Origin: Pseudomonas fluorescens
GTDB taxonomy: Bacteria > Pseudomonadota > Gammaproteobacteria > Pseudomonadales > Pseudomonadaceae
Assembly (NCBI RefSeq): GCF_001307275.1
Contig: NZ_CP012831.1
Span: 5,944,501 to 6,008,500 of the forward strand
Reading direction: 5' to 3'
DNA length: 64,000 nucleotides
The notes under the pieces were generated by a model, which worked only from the letters and a program-made list of their open reading frames with translations, was not told the origin of the DNA and made no database searches. Positions 54,386 through 64,000 of the stretch are shown in pieces (position 1 is the stretch's first letter; the number at the start of each line of letters is the position of its first letter). The translations under genes were made by a program, and so were the position numbers.

Positions 54386-57300
54386 CTAGCGGATCGTTTG
54401 CCCCATCATCAGCCTGACATCGCGAGTCCCCTCGTAGGCGCAACGTCCGTGCGCCATCAGTAGGTTGTCGACGATCAGGACATCGTCCTTTTCGAGCAGC
54501 AGCTGGCGTTCGCATTGTGCGTAAGCGGCGCGTAGCTGCGTGAGTTCGTCATTTCCAATCGGTGAGCCGTCGCCGAAAAAAGAGCGGTTTGGCAGGTAGC
54601 CATCGCCGTACAAGTCTCGGATTGAACGGCGCACCGCGTTGTCCAGGCTGGTTTCGTGGAAGAACAGCGCATGGTTGAACCAAGAGGCCTCGCCCGTGAC
54701 GGGGTGCTTGCTGACGGCGTCGGCGACGCGCGACAGGCTCAGGTTCGCTTCCGAATGCCAGTTGACCCGGTAACCTGCGTCTCGGCAGATGGCATCGACT
54801 TCTTCGCGTTGCTCGCACTGGAACACGTACTGCCATGGCATGCCCAACGGCGGACCGAGTTCACGCTGGTAAAGTACGCCGTGCTTTTCGAATCTTTCCC
54901 GTAGTGTGTGCGGCAACCGGGCCAGTACTGCACGCGAATCCGCGAGCAGATTTTCTCCGCCCGATGGCGCGGGGGATACACACCAGAAGAACAGCGTGCC
55001 CGGCCATTGGTGGGCGTAGGAATTCTCGTTGTGCAGGTCGATGCGCTGGTGTCCCGGGTGCTCGGTTGCGCTGTAGAGATTTTCGCTGAGCCTCGTACGC
55101 GGCGTGGAGCGTTCCGTGTAGCTGACAAGTTCGCCGCACAGCCCCGTCGCCAGACGGCCCAGTTCTTGTGCGCAAAGCCCTGCAAAACCCTTGGCCAACA
55201 CCGCGCCGTAACGCCGCAGCTGCGCAGTCAACTCCGTGCGTGCTTGGATCGCTGCCGTGGCGAGCGAGACGTTGCGCCGAAGTGGCTCGATACGCGGTAC
55301 CGGGCAGTGCGCATCGGGCGCAATGAAATGCAGCGCTGCACTCGACGCCCCGGCCGGCTTGCGGCGCGCATTCTGCAGCTGCGCGAGCAGCGCGCTCGCT
55401 TGTGCTGGCGATGGCGCCCGTACCGCCGGTGCGATGCCCATCGCGTCATTCCTCGGTTCCAAGCGTTCGGCTCGCCTCGCGACCAGTGCCAGCCGTTCCT
55501 CTTGGATATCATCCATTCGTGCAAGCCGCGCGAGTACCGTGACGAAATCATCCCAAAGCCGCTGCATGGCTTGCTCTGAATGGCGAGCTGTATTGAATGC
55601 CAGGCTGCCTGAGTAGCTGTCTGCATCGCGCTGCAGATTGATCAGGATGTCAAATTTGGCCACGCTGGGTGGGAGCACCTGCTCATGGATGACAAGCATG
55701 GATTCATCTTCGAAGGGCGCGCGCTTATCGTTGAGAACGAATTTCACATCGAAGTGTGGCGGCAGATGGGTCTGCCTCGACTTGCGCCACGCCGCCACGA
55801 ACCATTCGTAGGGATATGCCTGATGGCTGAACGCATCGGTCAATTGGCGCTGGCAGGCTTGAATCATGTCATCGACGTCACCCCTGTCAGGCAGGCGAAT
55901 CGGCAGTATCAATTGATTCACCATCATCCCGGCGACCTGCTCGAATTCGGGGCGCTCACGGTTGCGCGCGTCAGTGGCGACGGTCACCGGCCGGTGGGTG
56001 GTGGGGTCCTCCATCGCCAGGCACAACGCGGCGATCAATACACTCAGCTCGCCGACACGGTGGCGTGCGGTCAGGAGGTCGACCACCTGGGCTGGCGCGC
56101 CCGCAATGGAGATGCGCATATGACCCGCCGGCGGCGCGTTCCGCGGCAACGTTTTGGCAGGGACATCGTCGTCAGATGCGGCGCGGCAGTGGATCGCCTG
56201 TTCGTGCCAGAAGGCGGCCAGGACCTCACGGCGTGCAGCCAGATGTCGGGACTGCCAGTCGGAGAAGTCCACGTATTGCCACTTCGCCTCAGTCGGTTGG
56301 ATCTTTTCTCCCGCCTGGATACGTCTGTAGTCCCGCAGCAATTCGCCCAGCACCAGACGCAAGGTCGTGCCATCGCTGACGATATGGTGCAAGACAAGAC
56401 AGAAACTGTGTGCATTGGCTTGCGTACGCAGCAGCAATGCGCGGATGACCCGACCGCTTTCGAGGTCAAAGGCTTCGTCGGCGAAGGCTCGCAGCAAGGG
56501 CTCCATCGGTTCGTCATTTATCACTGCGGTACGGAAATCCGCAGCGATGTCCTCACGCCAACGCTGCAGGTAGTCGCCTTGCTGGAAGCGGTATGCCGTA
56601 GTGAAAATGCGGTGGCGCTGCAAGAGTGCTTCGAAGGCCTGTTTCAAGGCGTGGGCCGAGAGGGGGCCTTGGATAGTCAATACGATGTGATCGTGGTAGG
56701 CCTGTGTTTCGCCACGGTCATGCAGGATCAGCATCGCCCGCTGTGCGGATGAGACCGGATATTCCTTCTCGCGAGGAACGCGCACCAACGCCGTTCCCTG
56801 TGGACCGGCCTTGGCTGCATGCAGCGCGCGGTAGTGGCCAGCGAGCGTGGGCGCACTATAAAAATCGCGCAGCGTGATTTCGACGCCGAAGTGCGCATTG
56901 GCCCGTCCCAACAGTTGCAAGGCGATCAGCGAATTACCGCCGGCGTCATGGAAGTTCCCATGGCCATCGAACCGGGGTAGAGCCTCGTGCCACAGGCCGA
57001 GCAGCGTTTCGAAGCCTGCGCGTTCAGCCGCACTGGCTAATACAGGGTGCCGAGAAGACATCTCCTGGGCCCGCACTTCACGCAGGAGCGCTTCGAGTCG
57101 CAGGGCATCCACTTTCTGGCTCGACGTCAACGGGATTTCGGGAATGCAGATGATGTCGCGGGGCAGGGTGCCGACCTCCCATTGGTCTGCCAGGTGGGCC
57201 AGTAACCTCTGGTCGAGCGTGTCGTCGACTTCGCCGCGGGGTACCACGAAGGCGGCGATGGTCGGCGCCGCTTGCGTCCCGTCCAGTCTGCATGCGAGTA

Positions 57301-60300
57301 CGTACGCATCGGTGATCGCCGTATGCCGTACGAGCGCATCGCGCATCGCCGACAGTTCGACTCGGTGCCCGTTGATCTTGAATTGCGTGTCTTGACGTCC
57401 CATGAACACCAGTTGGCCGGCAGTATCGATGCGGGCACGGTCGCCGGTGGCGTAGAGCCTGCCGCCTACCGGTCCGAAAGGATCGGGGACAAAGGACGTC
57501 GCGGTCTGTACCGGCTTGCGCCAATAGCCCTGTGCGATGCCGACGCCGGCAATGTACACCTGACCTTCGACACCATGGGGTACCGGGCAGAGCCTGTCAT
57601 CCAGTACGTAGACCTGGACGCCAACCAAAGGCGTGCCGATGCTCACCGGGCCGCTGCGCCGCGCGGCAATGCTGGCACAGGTGGCCCAGATTGTTGCTTC
57701 GGTGGGGCCATAGAGGTTTGCCAATGGGGCATTGCAAGCCATGCGCATTTGCCGTAACAGACCATCGTCCAACGCTTCGCCGCCGACTGCCCAGAAGGCC
57801 AGCCGCTCAAGAGCGGGCGGCAACCGCCCGCCACGTTGAAGCAGCAGCCGGGCGGCTGACGGTGTGCATTGCAGATGCGTTGCTGGCGGGCTTGGCGCAA
57901 GGTCTGTAGGCGGATGGTGGTTCGCGTTGCGCGCCGCCGCGAGTTGCTCCAGGCCGGTGTTGACGACGTCGAGGGGTAGTCCGAAATCGATCAGGCAGGC
58001 CACCTCGTCCACGCCAAGGCGATGCAGACGCTGCAATCGCTGCATGGCCGTGCATGGGCCGCAGACCAGACTCCGGTCGGCGATGAGTCGCCGTGTGGCG
58101 GTCTCGATCAGTGGGTCTTGTGCGTGCACCTCCAGGTCGGGAGCCAGACTGCGCAGTGCATCACGTGCGCCGGCGAGGTAGCGTGCAAGCAGCGGTTGCG
58201 CCACCGCGACAGCCTCGGCGTCGTTCACGCCAACATACGTGTGCAGCATCAGTACGACCCGACCTGGTGGTCCGTCATCGCCGTGGAACGCGTGCCATGC
58301 CCGCCGGTAGCATTCGATATTGCGGGCCAGTTGCTCAATGTCCTGCTCCAGCAGGTGTGTAAGGACATCCAGGCCTTGTTCGGCCGCCGCCTCGAACTGA
58401 TCGGGGCGGTTCGATACCGTCATCGACAGCGGGATGTCGGCCAGTGGCGCTAGCGCAATGCGGGCTTCGAAGTAGCGGCCCTCGGGATCATGGAACGGGA
58501 CCGATTGGCTTTTCCATAACCTGCGTAAATCGTGCAATTGTTCAAAGCGCGTATCCGCGCGTTGCGAAATAGGGCGGTGGGCGAGAACGAAGTCGGCCGG
58601 GTTCCACCCGGATGCGAGCGAGAGGCCCGCGCGACCGCCTGAAAAACGGGAAACCGCGGCCCAGTCCTCGGCCAGTCGGACAGTATGCTGCAGCGGCCCT
58701 ATCACGCTGCCCGCCCGGATCGCGATACGCTGCGTCAGGGCGGCAAGGTGGGTGGCTGTCAGCGCGGGATTGGAGAAGAAGCCTCCAAATGCGGTGAAGT
58801 GTCGTTCCGGTGTCCACAGGGTGTCGAAACCGTTGCGGTCGCCCCACTGTGCGGTCTGCTGTAGCAGCGCCAGATGATCGGACGGCGTGTAGTCGTCGGT
58901 CGAGCCAAAATAGAACAGGCCCAGTGCGGGCAATGGACCTGTTCCGTCGGGTATGGAGTGCGGTGGAGCATTGCACAGCTCGGCGAGCGATCCGATCCTG
59001 ACCAGGAAGCCGCGGCTCATGGACCACAGCAGTTCCAGGATCGAGATATCGAAGGAAAGGCTGGAAACCGCAAGCCACACATCGCAGGACGTGCGTGGCA
59101 CGAGCTGGTCCATCGCGCTGCAGAAGGCCTCCAGATTACCACGTGTCACGAGTACGCCCTTGGGGTTTCCCGTTGAGCCGGAGGTATAAAGCAGGTAGGC
59201 CGGCAGGCCGGCGTCAAGAGGCAGTGGAGCCGAGTCATACGGTGGCAATGAGTAGGCGTCGGCCAGCCAGAGCGAGAGATCTTGCCATTCGCCTGGAAGA
59301 TTTCGGGCCGTGTCATCGGCAAGCCGCCAATGGGCCGCCGCGTCGTCGAGAATGAATCTCAGCTTGGCGGGAGGGAGGTCTGGCGCCAGTGGCACGTACG
59401 TCAGGCCGCGCGCGAGGCAAGCCCAGATTGCGCACAGTGTCGCCTGGTTGCGGTCGCCCAGGATGACGACCCGATCACCTGGGCGGGCGCCCAGGCGATC
59501 GAGACCGATCGCGATCGCTCGGATGCCGCCAAGCATCTGCGAGAACGTAAGCGTCGTCCCGTTACCAGCGTCCAGTGCCAGGTCATCGGGCCTTAGTGTG
59601 GCCTGATCAAGCAGTGCATCCAGTGGCGATGCGCAGTCGCCCGCACTCGGACCCGGTCCTTCGAGCACGGCCAGAGGCACGTTGTCGGGCATCAGTTGGC
59701 CGATGGGGGTGGTCGGGTCGTCAAGTGCTTGGCATAGCTGTATGAGCATACTGCCCAGGCCCTCGGCGAACGATTCGATGGCCGCCTCGTTGTAGAGTCC
59801 GCTGTCGTACTCGATCCAGAGGTCGATGCCGTCGGAATCTTCGGCGAGATAGACGCTCAGATCGAATTTAGCGATGCCAGTGTCCACATCCAGCATGGCC
59901 ATTTCCACTTCGCCAAGTTGCAAGGGTGGCAGCGGATTGTTCTGCAGTGCGAACAATATTGACGGCGACTCACTGACCGTTTGCGGCGCTTCGTGGGCGA
60001 TGCTGTAGAGCGACACCTCGCCGTGGCGCATCAGGTCGCGCAAAGTCGCCACGACGCTTGTGACGAAGTCGGCTACCGTTTCATCCGCTGCGCAGCGGTG
60101 GCGCACGATCACGGTATTGGCGAGATAGCCGACAAGGCGTTGCCGCTGTCGTTCGTTGCGGTTGGCGAGCAGGGTGGCAATGGCGATGTCGTTGTCGCCG
60201 CTGCGGCACGCAAGAAATCGCAGGAATGCGGCGAGCATCAGTTGGTAGCGCGTGACGCGCAGTGCGCGGGCCGAGGCATCGAGCGAGGCCATGATGCCGT

Positions 60301-61054
60301 CGAAGCGGTGCTTGAGCGTGCGTCCGCGCCGCGACTGCGGCCGAAGACGGTACGCCTCGCCGTTGGACGGAAGACGTGTCCACCGTAGCCCGTCCAGATG
60401 CTTCTTCCAATAGGCCAGCGATGCCAGATAGGCGGGCTGTCTCGTCGCATCCAATGCGTCAGCGACATAGTCGCCGATGCGATAGGGTGGTGCTGCTGGC
60501 GTAGCCTGTGGCGATCCGGTTTCGCCCGAAGTGTATGCGACATAGGCGGCCGCGATCTCTGTAATCAGGATGCCCAACGACCAACCGTCCATCACCATGT
60601 GGTGGAAAACCAGCAGCAGGATGGCGTTTCCCGGTTCCAGCGTGAGCAGGCTGGCTCGCATCAGTGGGCCATGCTCAAGATCGAAAGGACGGCGCGCTTC
60701 CTGCCGAGCGCACCGTGTCACGGCGAACTGCCGCGCGCGGACGCCCAGCGCGCTCAGGTCATGCCGCTGCCATGCCAGCTCGGCGTTGGGTTCTATGCGT
60801 GCGACCGGCTTGCCGTCTACGCAGGGGAAACGCATGCGCAGACTGTCGTGCCGAGCCATGGCCTGCCGCAGGCAGACCGCAAGCGCTGTCTCGTCGAGTG
60901 GGCCCGATAGCCGTAACGCACTGAGATGGTGATAGGCGGGATCAAGCGGATACCGTTGCGTCAGCCCCCAAAGCCGGCGTTGCCCCAGGGTCAGGGGTAA
61001 TGTTTCCACGGTGCGCGCATCCAGCGCTTCGGTGTGCATGTCCGGTATCGCCAT
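54386..61054 (-). CDS. Nonribosomal peptide synthetase C-A(luciferase-like monooxygenase insert)-T-C-TauD
   Basis: A 2222-residue multidomain enzyme. C1 (about 15-455; HHMVMDG at 151-157) precedes an adenylation domain (about 475-1325) interrupted between A4 (LSFDISILELLW) and A5 by a flavin-dependent luciferase-like monooxygenase (708-1045). A motifs are intact on both sides: LYTSGSTGNPKG, LYGPTEATIW, YATGDRAR, Lys1314. T1 has S1375 in GGNSLIALQ. A second condensation domain (about 1430-1860; HHIVSDG at 1556-1562) leads to a C-terminal TauD/SyrP-like dioxygenase (about 1925-2222). The hand-read A code is near DILQWVLIWK, closest to the Gly code DILQLGLIWK. No strong ribosome binding site precedes the ATG. 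First megasynthase gene of the minus-strand operon. Confidence 0.94.
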   Translation of the reverse strand: MAIPDMHTEALDARTVETLPLTLGQRRLWGLTQRYPLDPAYHHLSALRLSGPLDETALAVCLRQAMARHDSLRMRFPCVDGKPVARIEPNAELAWQRHDLSALGVRARQFAVTRCARQEARRPFDLEHGPLMRASLLTLEPGNAILLLVFHHMVMDGWSLGILITEIAAAYVAYTSGETGSPQATPAAPPYRIGDYVADALDATRQPAYLASLAYWKKHLDGLRWTRLPSNGEAYRLRPQSRRGRTLKHRFDGIMASLDASARALRVTRYQLMLAAFLRFLACRSGDNDIAIATLLANRNERQRQRLVGYLANTVIVRHRCAADETVADFVTSVVATLRDLMRHGEVSLYSIAHEAPQTVSESPSILFALQNNPLPPLQLGEVEMAMLDVDTGIAKFDLSVYLAEDSDGIDLWIEYDSGLYNEAAIESFAEGLGSMLIQLCQALDDPTTPIGQLMPDNVPLAVLEGPGPSAGDCASPLDALLDQATLRPDDLALDAGNGTTLTFSQMLGGIRAIAIGLDRLGARPGDRVVILGDRNQATLCAIWACLARGLTYVPLAPDLPPAKLRFILDDAAAHWRLADDTARNLPGEWQDLSLWLADAYSLPPYDSAPLPLDAGLPAYLLYTSGSTGNPKGVLVTRGNLEAFCSAMDQLVPRTSCDVWLAVSSLSFDISILELLWSMSRGFLVRIGSLAELCNAPPHSIPDGTGPLPALGLFYFGSTDDYTPSDHLALLQQTAQWGDRNGFDTLWTPERHFTAFGGFFSNPALTATHLAALTQRIAIRAGSVIGPLQHTVRLAEDWAAVSRFSGGRAGLSLASGWNPADFVLAHRPISQRADTRFEQLHDLRRLWKSQSVPFHDPEGRYFEARIALAPLADIPLSMTVSNRPDQFEAAAEQGLDVLTHLLEQDIEQLARNIECYRRAWHAFHGDDGPPGRVVLMLHTYVGVNDAEAVAVAQPLLARYLAGARDALRSLAPDLEVHAQDPLIETATRRLIADRSLVCGPCTAMQRLQRLHRLGVDEVACLIDFGLPLDVVNTGLEQLAAARNANHHPPTDLAPSPPATHLQCTPSAARLLLQRGGRLPPALERLAFWAVGGEALDDGLLRQMRMACNAPLANLYGPTEATIWATCASIAARRSGPVSIGTPLVGVQVYVLDDRLCPVPHGVEGQVYIAGVGIAQGYWRKPVQTATSFVPDPFGPVGGRLYATGDRARIDTAGQLVFMGRQDTQFKINGHRVELSAMRDALVRHTAITDAYVLACRLDGTQAAPTIAAFVVPRGEVDDTLDQRLLAHLADQWEVGTLPRDIICIPEIPLTSSQKVDALRLEALLREVRAQEMSSRHPVLASAAERAGFETLLGLWHEALPRFDGHGNFHDAGGNSLIALQLLGRANAHFGVEITLRDFYSAPTLAGHYRALHAAKAGPQGTALVRVPREKEYPVSSAQRAMLILHDRGETQAYHDHIVLTIQGPLSAHALKQAFEALLQRHRIFTTAYRFQQGDYLQRWREDIAADFRTAVINDEPMEPLLRAFADEAFDLESGRVIRALLLRTQANAHSFCLVLHHIVSDGTTLRLVLGELLRDYRRIQAGEKIQPTEAKWQYVDFSDWQSRHLAARREVLAAFWHEQAIHCRAASDDDVPAKTLPRNAPPAGHMRISIAGAPAQVVDLLTARHRVGELSVLIAALCLAMEDPTTHRPVTVATDARNRERPEFEQVAGMMVNQLILPIRLPDRGDVDDMIQACQRQLTDAFSHQAYPYEWFVAAWRKSRQTHLPPHFDVKFVLNDKRAPFEDESMLVIHEQVLPPSVAKFDILINLQRDADSYSGSLAFNTARHSEQAMQRLWDDFVTVLARLARMDDIQEERLALVARRAERLEPRNDAMGIAPAVRAPSPAQASALLAQLQNARRKPAGASSAALHFIAPDAHCPVPRIEPLRRNVSLATAAIQARTELTAQLRRYGAVLAKGFAGLCAQELGRLATGLCGELVSYTERSTPRTRLSENLYSATEHPGHQRIDLHNENSYAHQWPGTLFFWCVSPAPSGGENLLADSRAVLARLPHTLRERFEKHGVLYQRELGPPLGMPWQYVFQCEQREEVDAICRDAGYRVNWHSEANLSLSRVADAVSKHPVTGEASWFNHALFFHETSLDNAVRRSIRDLYGDGYLPNRSFFGDGSPIGNDELTQLRAAYAQCERQLLLEKDDVLIVDNLLMAHGRCAYEGTRDVRLMMGQTIR
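54389..55282 (-). other. SyrP/TauD-like Fe(II)/2-oxoglutarate dioxygenase domain
   Basis: Residues about 1925-2222. Metal ligands H2008 and E2010 are in DLHNENSYAHQWPG, the distal His H2202 is in LMAHGRCAYEG, and R2211 is placed to hold 2-oxoglutarate. SyrP-type enzymes beta-hydroxylate carrier-bound Asp. Confidence 0.88.
57920..58933 (-). other. Luciferase-like monooxygenase domain inserted in the adenylation domain
   Basis: Residues 708-1045 match the MupA/Atu3671-type natural-product LLM family: LGLFYFGSTDD at the start, GFDTLWTPERHFTAFGGFFS, and SLASGWNPADFVLA. Such domains use FMNH2 and oxygen. The boundaries fall between adenylation motifs A4 and A5. Confidence 0.9.
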
Positions 61055-61119: not shown

Positions 61120-61497
61120 TCAGTCGAGCTGCATGACTTGAAAGATGTTGCCCTCGGGGTCGGCGCCGTCGTACATCGAATAGGCGAATCCGTCATAGCG
61201 CTTGAGCGCCTGCACGGCAACACCGGCGGCGGCAAGCGTCTCCCGATGTTTTTCCAGATTGGCAGGGACTGTGAAGACGATCTTCGTATTGGGCCCGCAA
61301 TGGTCTTGCGAGGGCGGCGTGCGAAAGGCGGGGCCGACGAGGTGCAGCGCCAGCTCCACGCCGCCCGCATCGAAGACGACCCACTCGTTCTCGATTTCCT
61401 CGGTGATGATGGAAAGCCCGAAGTGCTGCTGGTAAAAAGCCTTGAGCAGCGCGACATCCCGCACATAGATAATCAACCGAGACATTCTGGCTGTCAT
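61120..61497 (-). CDS. VOC-family (glyoxalase/bleomycin-resistance-like) protein
   Basis: A 125-residue protein with paired beta-alpha-beta-beta-beta modules of the vicinal oxygen chelate fold: MSRLIIYVRDVALLKAFYQQ and the C-terminal YDGADPEGNIFQVMQL. AAGGA lies seven bases before the ATG. It is the first gene of the minus-strand NRPS operon, 65 bases upstream of the large synthetase. In such clusters VOC proteins serve as self-resistance binders or small tailoring enzymes; which applies is unknown. Confidence 0.88.
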   Translation of the reverse strand: MTARMSRLIIYVRDVALLKAFYQQHFGLSIITEEIENEWVVFDAGGVELALHLVGPAFRTPPSQDHCGPNTKIVFTVPANLEKHRETLAAAGVAVQALKRYDGFAYSMYDGADPEGNIFQVMQLD

Positions 61498-61860: not shown

Positions 61861-64000
61861 ATGGTGAGTGCCAGGGACGACGATTCACTTGACGATAAGG
61901 GTGCCATCGCAATTGTTGGCATGGCTTGTCGTTTTTCTGGTGCCGCCGGCCTTCAAGCGTTCTGGCAGATGCTGCTCGAGCAACGCTGCGGTGTGCGCAT
62001 GCTATCGGACGAAGCCTTGCTGGCGGCCGGCGTGCCATCCGACACATTGCTCGATCACGCCTATGTGAAAGCGAATGGCAGCCTTGAAGATGCCTTGGGT
62101 TTCGATGCCGGCTTCTTCGGTTACGCACCCCAAGAGGCTGCCCTGATCGATCCGCAGCACCGCGTCTTTCTCGAGGCTTGTTGGCACGCACGCGAGGATG
62201 CGATTGGCCAGCGTTCGGCGGATGAGCGCATCGGCGTCTACGCCGGGTCTGGTTTCAACACCTATCTGCTAACCCATGTGCACGCCGACTCCAAGTCATG
62301 GCAAGGTCCGGACCGCTGGCGCGCCGGCCTGGCGAACGATAAGGACACGCTGACCTCCAGGGTCGCGTACAAACTCGGTTTGACCGGGCCGGCCGTTACC
62401 GTGCAAACGGCGTGTTCCACCTCGTTGGTGGCCGTTCACCTTGCCTGCCAGGCCATTCTCGACGGTGATTGCGAAATGGCGCTGGCCGGCGGCGCAAGCG
62501 TGCACTTCCCGCTGGGCCACGGCTATCGTCACCATGCTGAAAGCGTTGAGGCCCAGGATGGCGTTTGCCGGCCTTTCAGTCCCGATGCGACGGGTACGGT
62601 CTTCACCGACGGTGTCGGGGTGGTCTTGCTGCGCCGGTACGAGGATGCGCAGCGTGCAGGTGATCGAATCTATGCGGTAATACGTGGTTCCGCCATCAAC
62701 AACGATGGAGCCGACAAGGTCGGTTTCACGGCTCCAGGCATGCGTGGACAGGTCGACGTGATCCGCATGGCCCATGCCGTCGCCGGCATGACGGGAGAGA
62801 CGGTCGATTATGTAGAGGCACATGGCACTGGGACGACCGTCGGCGACAGCATCGAGCTGCAGGCCCTGGAGCAAGCGTTCGAAACGCCCGGTTCCAGGAC
62901 CTCAACCTGCCTGTTGGGGGCTGTCAAAGGTAACCTTGGGCATACCGACAATGCGGCGGGCATCGCGGGCCTGATCAAGGTGGCGCTCAGCTTGTTTCAT
63001 CGCCAGTGGCCAGCGACCTTGCATGCCACTGCGCAAACGGCGACGCGACCTGGCTCGAGATTTTCCATTTGTCACCGGCCGATGTCTTGGGCTGACTGCG
63101 AGCGACTCCGGTATGCGGGCGTCAGCTCGTTCGGTATCGGTGGCACCAACGCGCACGTGGTTGTCCAGCAAACCCCTCGGCTCGAAGCGCGCAAGCACGA
63201 GCATGGCGGGAATCCTCTGGAAACGGGTTGGGGGGCGGCAGGCCACCCGTTTCAGCGAGCGCACCTCGAATACCGATCGTCAGGGCGAACGCCGCGCGAA
63301 GACGACTCAGGCGTACGTATCAACCATCTGCAATGGAGCGCCGAGGCTCAGCGACGCCACCCTTCGGAGGGCACGCTCGGCAGCATTCTCCTGGTCGCCG
63401 AAGTGGCGCCTCCCGCAGAACTGCTGCGCCGCCTCAGTACTCACGGCCAAGTCGAGCTCTGGTTGCATGCCGGGGCGAAAATCACGGGCACGCTGGCACA
63501 CCCGGTATTCGACCGCTTTGACTTTACAGACAATGCACAGTGGGATCGCGCCTGGAGGCGTCGTGTGCATCAGCCTCCTTCGACGATTATCTACCTGGGT
63601 GCCCTGGAGGGCATGCCCGCGGCATTCGACGTAACGCTTGCCTGTGCGCTCGGTTTCGGCGGTGGGATTGCACGTGCGCGCAACGGGAGTTGGCCGCCAG
63701 TCGGGGTTCACTGGGTCACGGCCGGGTTGTTTGACGCTGGCGGTGTGGCACCGTCGCCAGCCCATCTGGCTATTTGGGGGCCTGCGCGCGTGCTTGCGCA
63801 GGAAGTGACAGGCTTGGGCTGTCGGGTGTATGACGTCCGCGCAGGCGTGCGGCAACGCGACGTGGATGCATGGTCGACGTTGCTCACGTTGATCGCCACC
63901 GAGTCAGTTGGCGACCCGATGGCCGGATCGTTTGCCGCCTATGCGTTGCGTGGCGAACGGATTTTCGTGCCGCACGTTTCCTCGATCGTCCAACCGCCTG
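61861..64000 (+). CDS. Polyketide synthase, KS then KR-like region (3' end outside window)
   Basis: The frame is open from the ATG at 61861 to the right edge, 713 codons. A ketosynthase (about residues 13-440) has the full triad: C185 in TACSTSLVAV, H321 in HGTGTTVGDS, and H361 in KGNLGHTDNAAG. After a linker of about 60-80 residues, the chain matches the N-terminal half of a PKS ketoreductase (AHLAIWGPARVLAQEV, AYALRGERIFVPHV) instead of an acyltransferase. It diverges from the NRPS operon across the candidate Fur site. A GGGGA-type ribosome binding site precedes the ATG; a GTG at the next codon is also possible. It probably builds or extends a short polyketide used by the NRPS line. Confidence 0.93.
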   Translation, partial: MVSARDDDSLDDKGAIAIVGMACRFSGAAGLQAFWQMLLEQRCGVRMLSDEALLAAGVPSDTLLDHAYVKANGSLEDALGFDAGFFGYAPQEAALIDPQHRVFLEACWHAREDAIGQRSADERIGVYAGSGFNTYLLTHVHADSKSWQGPDRWRAGLANDKDTLTSRVAYKLGLTGPAVTVQTACSTSLVAVHLACQAILDGDCEMALAGGASVHFPLGHGYRHHAESVEAQDGVCRPFSPDATGTVFTDGVGVVLLRRYEDAQRAGDRIYAVIRGSAINNDGADKVGFTAPGMRGQVDVIRMAHAVAGMTGETVDYVEAHGTGTTVGDSIELQALEQAFETPGSRTSTCLLGAVKGNLGHTDNAAGIAGLIKVALSLFHRQWPATLHATAQTATRPGSRFSICHRPMSWADCERLRYAGVSSFGIGGTNAHVVVQQTPRLEARKHEHGGNPLETGWGAAGHPFQRAHLEYRSSGRTPREDDSGVRINHLQWSAEAQRRHPSEGTLGSILLVAEVAPPAELLRRLSTHGQVELWLHAGAKITGTLAHPVFDRFDFTDNAQWDRAWRRRVHQPPSTIIYLGALEGMPAAFDVTLACALGFGGGIARARNGSWPPVGVHWVTAGLFDAGGVAPSPAHLAIWGPARVLAQEVTGLGCRVYDVRAGVRQRDVDAWSTLLTLIATESVGDPMAGSFAAYALRGERIFVPHVSSIVQPP

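Follow-up and report, generated by a model that had tools for sequence, protein, structure and literature searches.

The proteins concerned in the myxothiazol and melithiazol pathways are MtaG and MelG. The terminal modules of both pathways have a flavin monooxygenase (FMO or MOX) between motifs A4 and A5 of a glycine-activating adenylation (A) domain, and this enzyme is described as hydroxylating Cα of the glycyl unit, after which the carbinolamide cleaves (PMC10204066). Both the Cα reaction of such A4-A5 glycine modules and the cleavage in these two pathways are also described in PMC11342130, and PMC9396620 describes the release of myxothiazol likewise. In SolF, from the solanimycin pathway, the FMO is placed between A8 and A9 and the hydroxyglycine is kept: solanimycin B retains α-hydroxyglycine, and a skipped FMO step leads to solanimycin A (PMC10204066). 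A MOx within the glycine A domain (A2) is reported for 38 corallorazine-like pathways of Pseudomonas and Serratia (PMC11342130). Finally, the OX domain of PuwE, together with an aminotransferase, was assigned to the step that yields a 3-amino-2-hydroxy acyl chain (PMC4219810).

Here, we describe a module of this kind from Pseudomonas fluorescens, in a window of 64,000 nucleotides (the whole stretch of DNA that was analysed). It is a diverged example of the A4-A5 arrangement, which is already published and common, so the novelty implied by an earlier sequence-only reading of this DNA is not supported. What is of interest here is the internal position of the module, the divergence of its oxygenase, and the TauD domain that adjoins it.

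The module is part of P0001 (54386..61054, reverse strand), a nonribosomal peptide synthetase (NRPS) of 2222 amino acids whose domain order in Pfam/NCBIfam hmmscan is C-A[LLM]-T-C-TauD; LLM stands for the luciferase-like FMN monooxygenase domain. All of its domains are on the reverse strand. The first condensation (C) domain (aa 18-448, 59711..61003; hmmscan and motif) has an intact active site, HHMVMDG. The A domain is in two parts, N-terminal (aa 475-711, 58922..59632; bounds by eye) and C-terminal (aa 1052-1325, 57080..57901; end by eye), and between them is the LLM domain (aa 712-1040, 57935..58921; TIGR04020), in agreement with the span of 57920-58933 that was first proposed. Then come a carrier (T) domain with GGNS (aa 1350-1405, 56840..57007), a second C domain with HHIVSDG at aa 1556 (55445..56761; bounds approximate, by eye), and a TauD dioxygenase domain (aa 1924-2216, 54407..55285) with H-x-E and the distal H present, which we take to resemble SyrP. 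The next gene, P0002 (48278..54373, reverse strand), encodes another NRPS, with a degenerate C domain followed by A-T-C-A-T (hmmscan; motif read by hand). Its hand-read codes are DFTKVGEVGK for the first A domain, which is presumably Asn-like, and DILQLGVIWK for the second, which lacks an LLM and is presumably glycine-like. Thus, the LLM-bearing module is internal: a C and a TauD domain follow it, and then the Asn-type module of P0002.

The AMP-binding match to P0001 is split into two stretches, the better of which covers aa 483-684 (hmmscan), and TIGR01733 places the C-terminal half of the A domain at aa 1052-1252. Motifs A3 (aa 622) and A4 (FDIS, within FDISILEL; aa 668) come before the LLM domain, and A5 (NLYGPTE; aa 1113) and A7 (YATGD; aa 1201) come after it. 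These positions, along with the TIGR04020 match (310.4 bits), confirm that the oxygenase is inserted between A4 and A5; being upstream of A5, it is not of the A8-A9 type found in SolF. The sequence-only reading had also called all of the flanking A motifs intact, which is true of A3, A4, A5, A7, and the A10 lysine but not of GEIE on the A8 side, which is SAMR, or of A10 as a whole, which reads SSQKVD instead of xNGKxD. We reject the specificity code that this reading gave, DILQWVLIWK, in which the residues taken for GrsA positions 299 and 301 are shifted by one (we take 301 to be the first G of GGE); motif-based extraction gives DILQAGLIWK, which is nearer to the glycine code. With the correction, the A domain appears to carry the glycine-type code of A4-A5 MOX modules, and the idea of a glycine-type A domain with an oxygenase inside it, which this code supports well, is on firmer ground than when it was put forward.

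The oxygenase belongs to the MupA/Atu3671 family of LLMs: TIGR04020 matches P0001 with 310.4 bits in hmmscan (E 1.4e-92), which exceeds the curated cut-off (244.45) by 66 bits, and PF00296 matches aa 718-1016 (E 1.2e-32). In the genome search, the window LLM scored 314.1 bits with TIGR04020, as compared to 466-493 bits for the three relatives above the cut-off. Both folds that the sequence-only reading expected are predicted with good confidence. An AlphaFold model of aa 454-1331 (pLDDT 86.3, pTM 0.69) aligns by VIA-align to the A domain of FscH (6ea3, Z 49.4) and to 1AMU (Z 46.5); the alignments to solved A domains cover both halves across the insert, and Z ranges from 44.9 to 49.4 in the 50 structural matches listed. 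Modelled alone, the LLM domain (pLDDT 91.1, pTM 0.90) has a predicted luciferase-like TIM-barrel fold. It matches the PuwE OX domain (6KET) with Z 42.0 over 334 residues at 34% identity and a luciferase-flavin complex (3FGC) with Z 34.2, and its fold neighbors include luciferase and sulfonate and Baeyer-Villiger monooxygenases.

LLM insertions between A4 and A5 are widespread, across many phyla. A scan of GTDB genomes with the LLM alignment found at least 566 relatives among at least 589 stretches, and the best 80 of these come from many phyla, at 34-43% identity (records near the source genome may be left out). Within the order, 20 of 390 genomes, including the source genome, match at E 1e-45 or better. 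From 112 LLM rows (one per locus, near-copies included; loci L002-L011, L015-L031, and L117, a copy of the window, are omitted), motifs show 78, including the window, to be embedded in the A domain at A4-A5. When the flanks of the other 34 were read by eye, eight more were judged to be so embedded, either with both sides seen (L056, L063, L085, L109, L130, and L135) or at contig ends (L073, with the A4 side cut off, and L090, with the A5 side cut off). Another three (L082, L120, and L137) are apparent A8-A9 insertions. The insertion site was considered as a candidate for something unusual, and we rejected it on these counts. Close relatives are another matter: no ortholog or close relative of the window module was found among 397 other congeners or among the best 80 of the at least 566 GTDB relatives. 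With the A-LLM query, 6 of 398 congeners reached E 1e-60 or better, one of these being the source genome. The remaining five (5 of 397, two candidates scored per genome) are at 36-37% identity, and in one of them, G129, only the LLM part matches, outside any A domain. (In that congener, the LLM at locus L036 comes after the carrier domain of a PKS-like protein, and the match contains one TGA.) For P0010, 30 of the other 397 congeners have matches, at only 34-43%, so these two queries did not find a conserved equivalent of the cluster in the 397 congeners searched.

Neither of two trees settles the origin of the window insertion. In a quick tree of 104 LLM domains, no starred set encloses the window, whose branch is long (1.15). 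Explaining the embedded label on this tree takes 18 changes, of which starred branches force 8; this is not a fair count of origins because the regex labels miss the eight rows that were found by eye. In a tree of 73 A domains with the LLM removed, the window is again on a long branch (1.56) and groups with 65 LLM-bearing rows, with an SH-aLRT of 88 (below the level for a star). Outside this group are the glycine-type A domain of P0002, which lacks an LLM, and also L035, which has one.

We favor, with some reserve, the explanation that the P0001 module makes an α-hydroxyglycyl unit, which goes through the C domain to the Asn-type module, and that the TauD domain probably β-hydroxylates Asn. 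The A domain would load glycine on its T domain, and the built-in LLM, using reduced FMN and O2, would hydroxylate Cα of the glycyl or acyl-glycyl thioester, with the hydroxyl being retained. Because the module is internal and because hmmscan found no thioesterase (TE) in P0001 or P0002, the α-hydroxyglycyl unit would be passed on by the following C domain to P0002, where Asn, rather than glycine, would be the probable substrate of TauD. The TIGR04020 score above the cut-off, the A4-A5 placement, the glycine-type code, and the published Cα chemistry argue for this account, as do the 3-amino-2-hydroxy acyl step assigned to PuwE, whose OX domain is the closest solved relative, and the relatives in which an LLM module is likewise internal. 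What can be read from the protein against it is the divergence of the LLM and A domains, the low TIGR04020 score, SAMR, and Ala299; also, no flavin reductase was named among the cluster genes scanned (a subset of the ORFs). A more elaborate version, in which an N-acyl-α-hydroxyglycyl N-terminus is built at the start of the line and later sheds the acyl amide to expose an N-terminal glyoxylyl (aldehyde) on the mature compound, strikes us as far-fetched.

First, the LLM could be inactive or act rarely, as a degenerate passenger, so that the module incorporates plain glycine. We consider this unlikely but worth weighing. Among 83 columns conserved at ≥90% in the 101 rows compared, the window LLM departs at 17 (including D802S, N803R, H789Q, and W877S), which is the highest count (the next rows have 15 and 14); however, the count omitted the remote stand-alone LLMs L136, L138, and L140 and loci with lower LLM scores (L015-L030, for example), so it is the most diverged within the compared set only. 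There is also a precedent for a skipped FMO step in solanimycin A (PMC10204066). On the other hand, the domain is read in frame without a stop codon, it keeps the other 66 conserved columns, its model is confident, and it scores well above the family cut-off. Furthermore, the A domain is diverged as well: in the A-LLM alignment, the window differs at 19 of 88 LLM columns (9 in the next row) and at 19 of 97 A columns (18 of 99 in the next row, L035). This fits a fast-evolving gene better than the decay of one domain. The window LLM keeps E-R-H-F, R-x-G-S, and G-W...D-F, and it also keeps the residues that are invariant over 54 rows, among them E51, R52, H53, F54, G83, S84, G117, D122, and F123 (LLM numbering). 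Given these residues and the 66 columns, the LLM is likely, but not certain, to be active. The sequence-only reading had named loss of FMN-site residues as a result that would count against it; the conserved oxygenase core is not lost, although 17 columns are gone.

Second, the module could work as in myxothiazol: the hydroxylated glycine would collapse, so that the upstream acyl or peptidyl chain comes off as a primary amide and the carrier is left with a glyoxylyl thioester. The LLM modules in the myxothiazol and melithiazol pathways are reported to end in this way (PMC10204066, PMC11342130; for myxothiazol also PMC9396620), but we think it quite improbable here. The known cases use a TE to remove the glyoxylate, whereas the T domain of P0001 precedes C-TauD and is not terminal, and no TE was found in P0001 or P0002. 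If P0001 is the first enzyme, as we suspect, then its own starter would be shed. The relatives give some context. Without near-copies, there are 72 embedded rows; 16 have no visible ORF end, and of the other 56, 44 stop within 370 aa of A5 (approximately after T) and 12 are longer. Motifs indicate T-TE in L039, L066, L067, L071, and L114, and a Pfam scan of one of them, L066, confirms it there. Eight relatives chosen for their long tails continue with T-C-A (seven scanned as 700-aa pieces and L149 whole, with its T domain found by motif); the window is therefore not alone in having an internal LLM module. No TauD domain was found in the scanned stretches of these eight.

The surroundings of P0001 suggest what might happen after the LLM step. 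The first C domain of P0002, which has SAWSVDH instead of HHxxxDG, comes directly after the TauD domain of P0001 and before the Asn-type A domain. The order of TauD, degenerate C, and Asn-type A suggests β-hydroxylation of Asn, and TauD and the degenerate C domain are possibly an interface-domain/hydroxylase pair for β-hydroxyasparagine; the role of interface domains is reportedly the subject of a 2019 paper by Reitz. As no TE was found in either protein, P0001 probably starts or feeds an assembly line that ends at P0014. P0003 (46952..48262, reverse strand), whose gene comes immediately after those of the NRPSs, is a flavoprotein like flavocytochrome-c sulfide dehydrogenase (hmmscan) with a Tat-like signal (SRRTFLAS, read by eye); it possibly performs periplasmic tailoring. 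The divergent strand begins at 61861 and is mostly beyond the window. It encodes P0008 (61861..63999 in the window, forward strand), a T-Ox protein (SagB family, TIGR03605), C-A-T proteins, an asparagine synthase, an A protein, a weakly PhyH-like protein, and a protein that has three C, two A, and three T domains and terminates in GWSFGG, a TE-like motif at which Pfam named no thioesterase. P0008 is a PKS-NRPS hybrid of 3344 aa that continues beyond the window, with the order KS-KR-DH-ACP-C-A-T-C-A. Its hand-read codes (final K not checked) are VDWVSSVADK and DLFNMSLIWK, which we take to be β-alanine-like and Cys-like. The latter A domain is behind a cyclisation-type C domain (DLLYADAWS), and the SagB-type T-Ox protein follows, so the Cys-like module and the T-Ox protein likely make a thiazole unit (L009:861-14511). 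The cluster also has a class C β-lactamase-fold protein (L009:11265-12989; PF00144, E 4.5e-21), possibly a peptidase or for self-protection, and a small VOC-fold ORF (61120-61497; PF00903) between the divergent NRPS genes. We considered bleomycin-like self-resistance for this ORF and set it aside, as beyond PF00903 it is only weakly FosA-like.

Third, the oxygenase could act elsewhere, by N-hydroxylating glycine or by oxidizing the upstream acyl chain. The fold family is catalytically broad, and PuwE was assigned to acyl-chain oxidation (PMC4219810). Nevertheless, this is very unlikely, as the A4-A5 LLM modules that have been described act on Cα of glycine (PMC10204066, PMC11342130); for the same reason, the N-oxidation of the glycyl unit that the sequence-only reading had suggested is unsupported.

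The codes of other embedded domains bear on the substrate. We extracted 78 A4-A5-embedded LLM domains by motif (the window and near-copies included), and nearly all of their A domains read DILQ-x-G-x-[I/V]-W. Position 2 is I and position 9 is W in all 78; position 3 is L in 76 and V in 2; position 4 is Q in 77 (one was not read); position 8 is I in 59 and V in 19; and K was read at position 10 in only 51. Positions 1 (D) and 6 (G) carry no evidence because the search motifs fix them. The full code DILQLGMIWK occurs in 13 of the 78, and 9 more have it with the lysine unread. This is the code given for four MOX-bearing glycine domains in a survey of 93 glycine-activating domains (PMC12283262), so our mapping of code positions has external support. 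The nearly constant signature should also make such A domains easy to recognize in other genomes. DILQLGLIWK is a glycine code, and DILQAGLIWK differs from it at one position. A substrate other than glycine is thus most improbable: in the diverged A domain of the window, Ala at 299, in place of Leu or Met, and Leu at 322 each occur once in the 78 domains, but the other eight positions are identical to those of DILQLGMIWK (PMC12283262).

How, then, does the P0001 module compare with the known systems? A4-A5 glycine-module oxygenases have been described as terminators that cut the glycine to leave an amide, and an internal LLM module beside an ordinary glycine-type module (the LLM-free second A domain of P0002 is a natural comparison from this cluster) would help to reveal what controls whether α-hydroxyglycine is retained or cleaved. 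The PuwE OX domain is from the same LLM family and is the best solved relative by sequence (E 1.7e-65), but its place is outside any A domain, next to an aminotransferase and between the PKS and NRPS modules (PMC4219810), whereas the P0001 LLM is inside one. The corallorazine-like clusters share with P0001 a MOx inside the glycine A domain (PMC11342130). The congener loci L013 and L032-L034 are probably of this kind, but they are only about 37% identical to the window module, and what follows downstream is a methyltransferase-like motif in L012, L013, and L032 but T-C-TauD in P0001. The modules of myxothiazol and melithiazol share the insertion type, but they are terminal, with a TE, and give an amide by cleavage (PMC10204066), while the P0001 module, with C and TauD next, is not an amide-releasing terminator. 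In SolF, as we propose for P0001, an FMO in a glycine module leaves a hydroxyglycine that is retained while the chain is later extended (PMC10204066), although the insertion is at A8-A9 in SolF and at A4-A5 in P0001.
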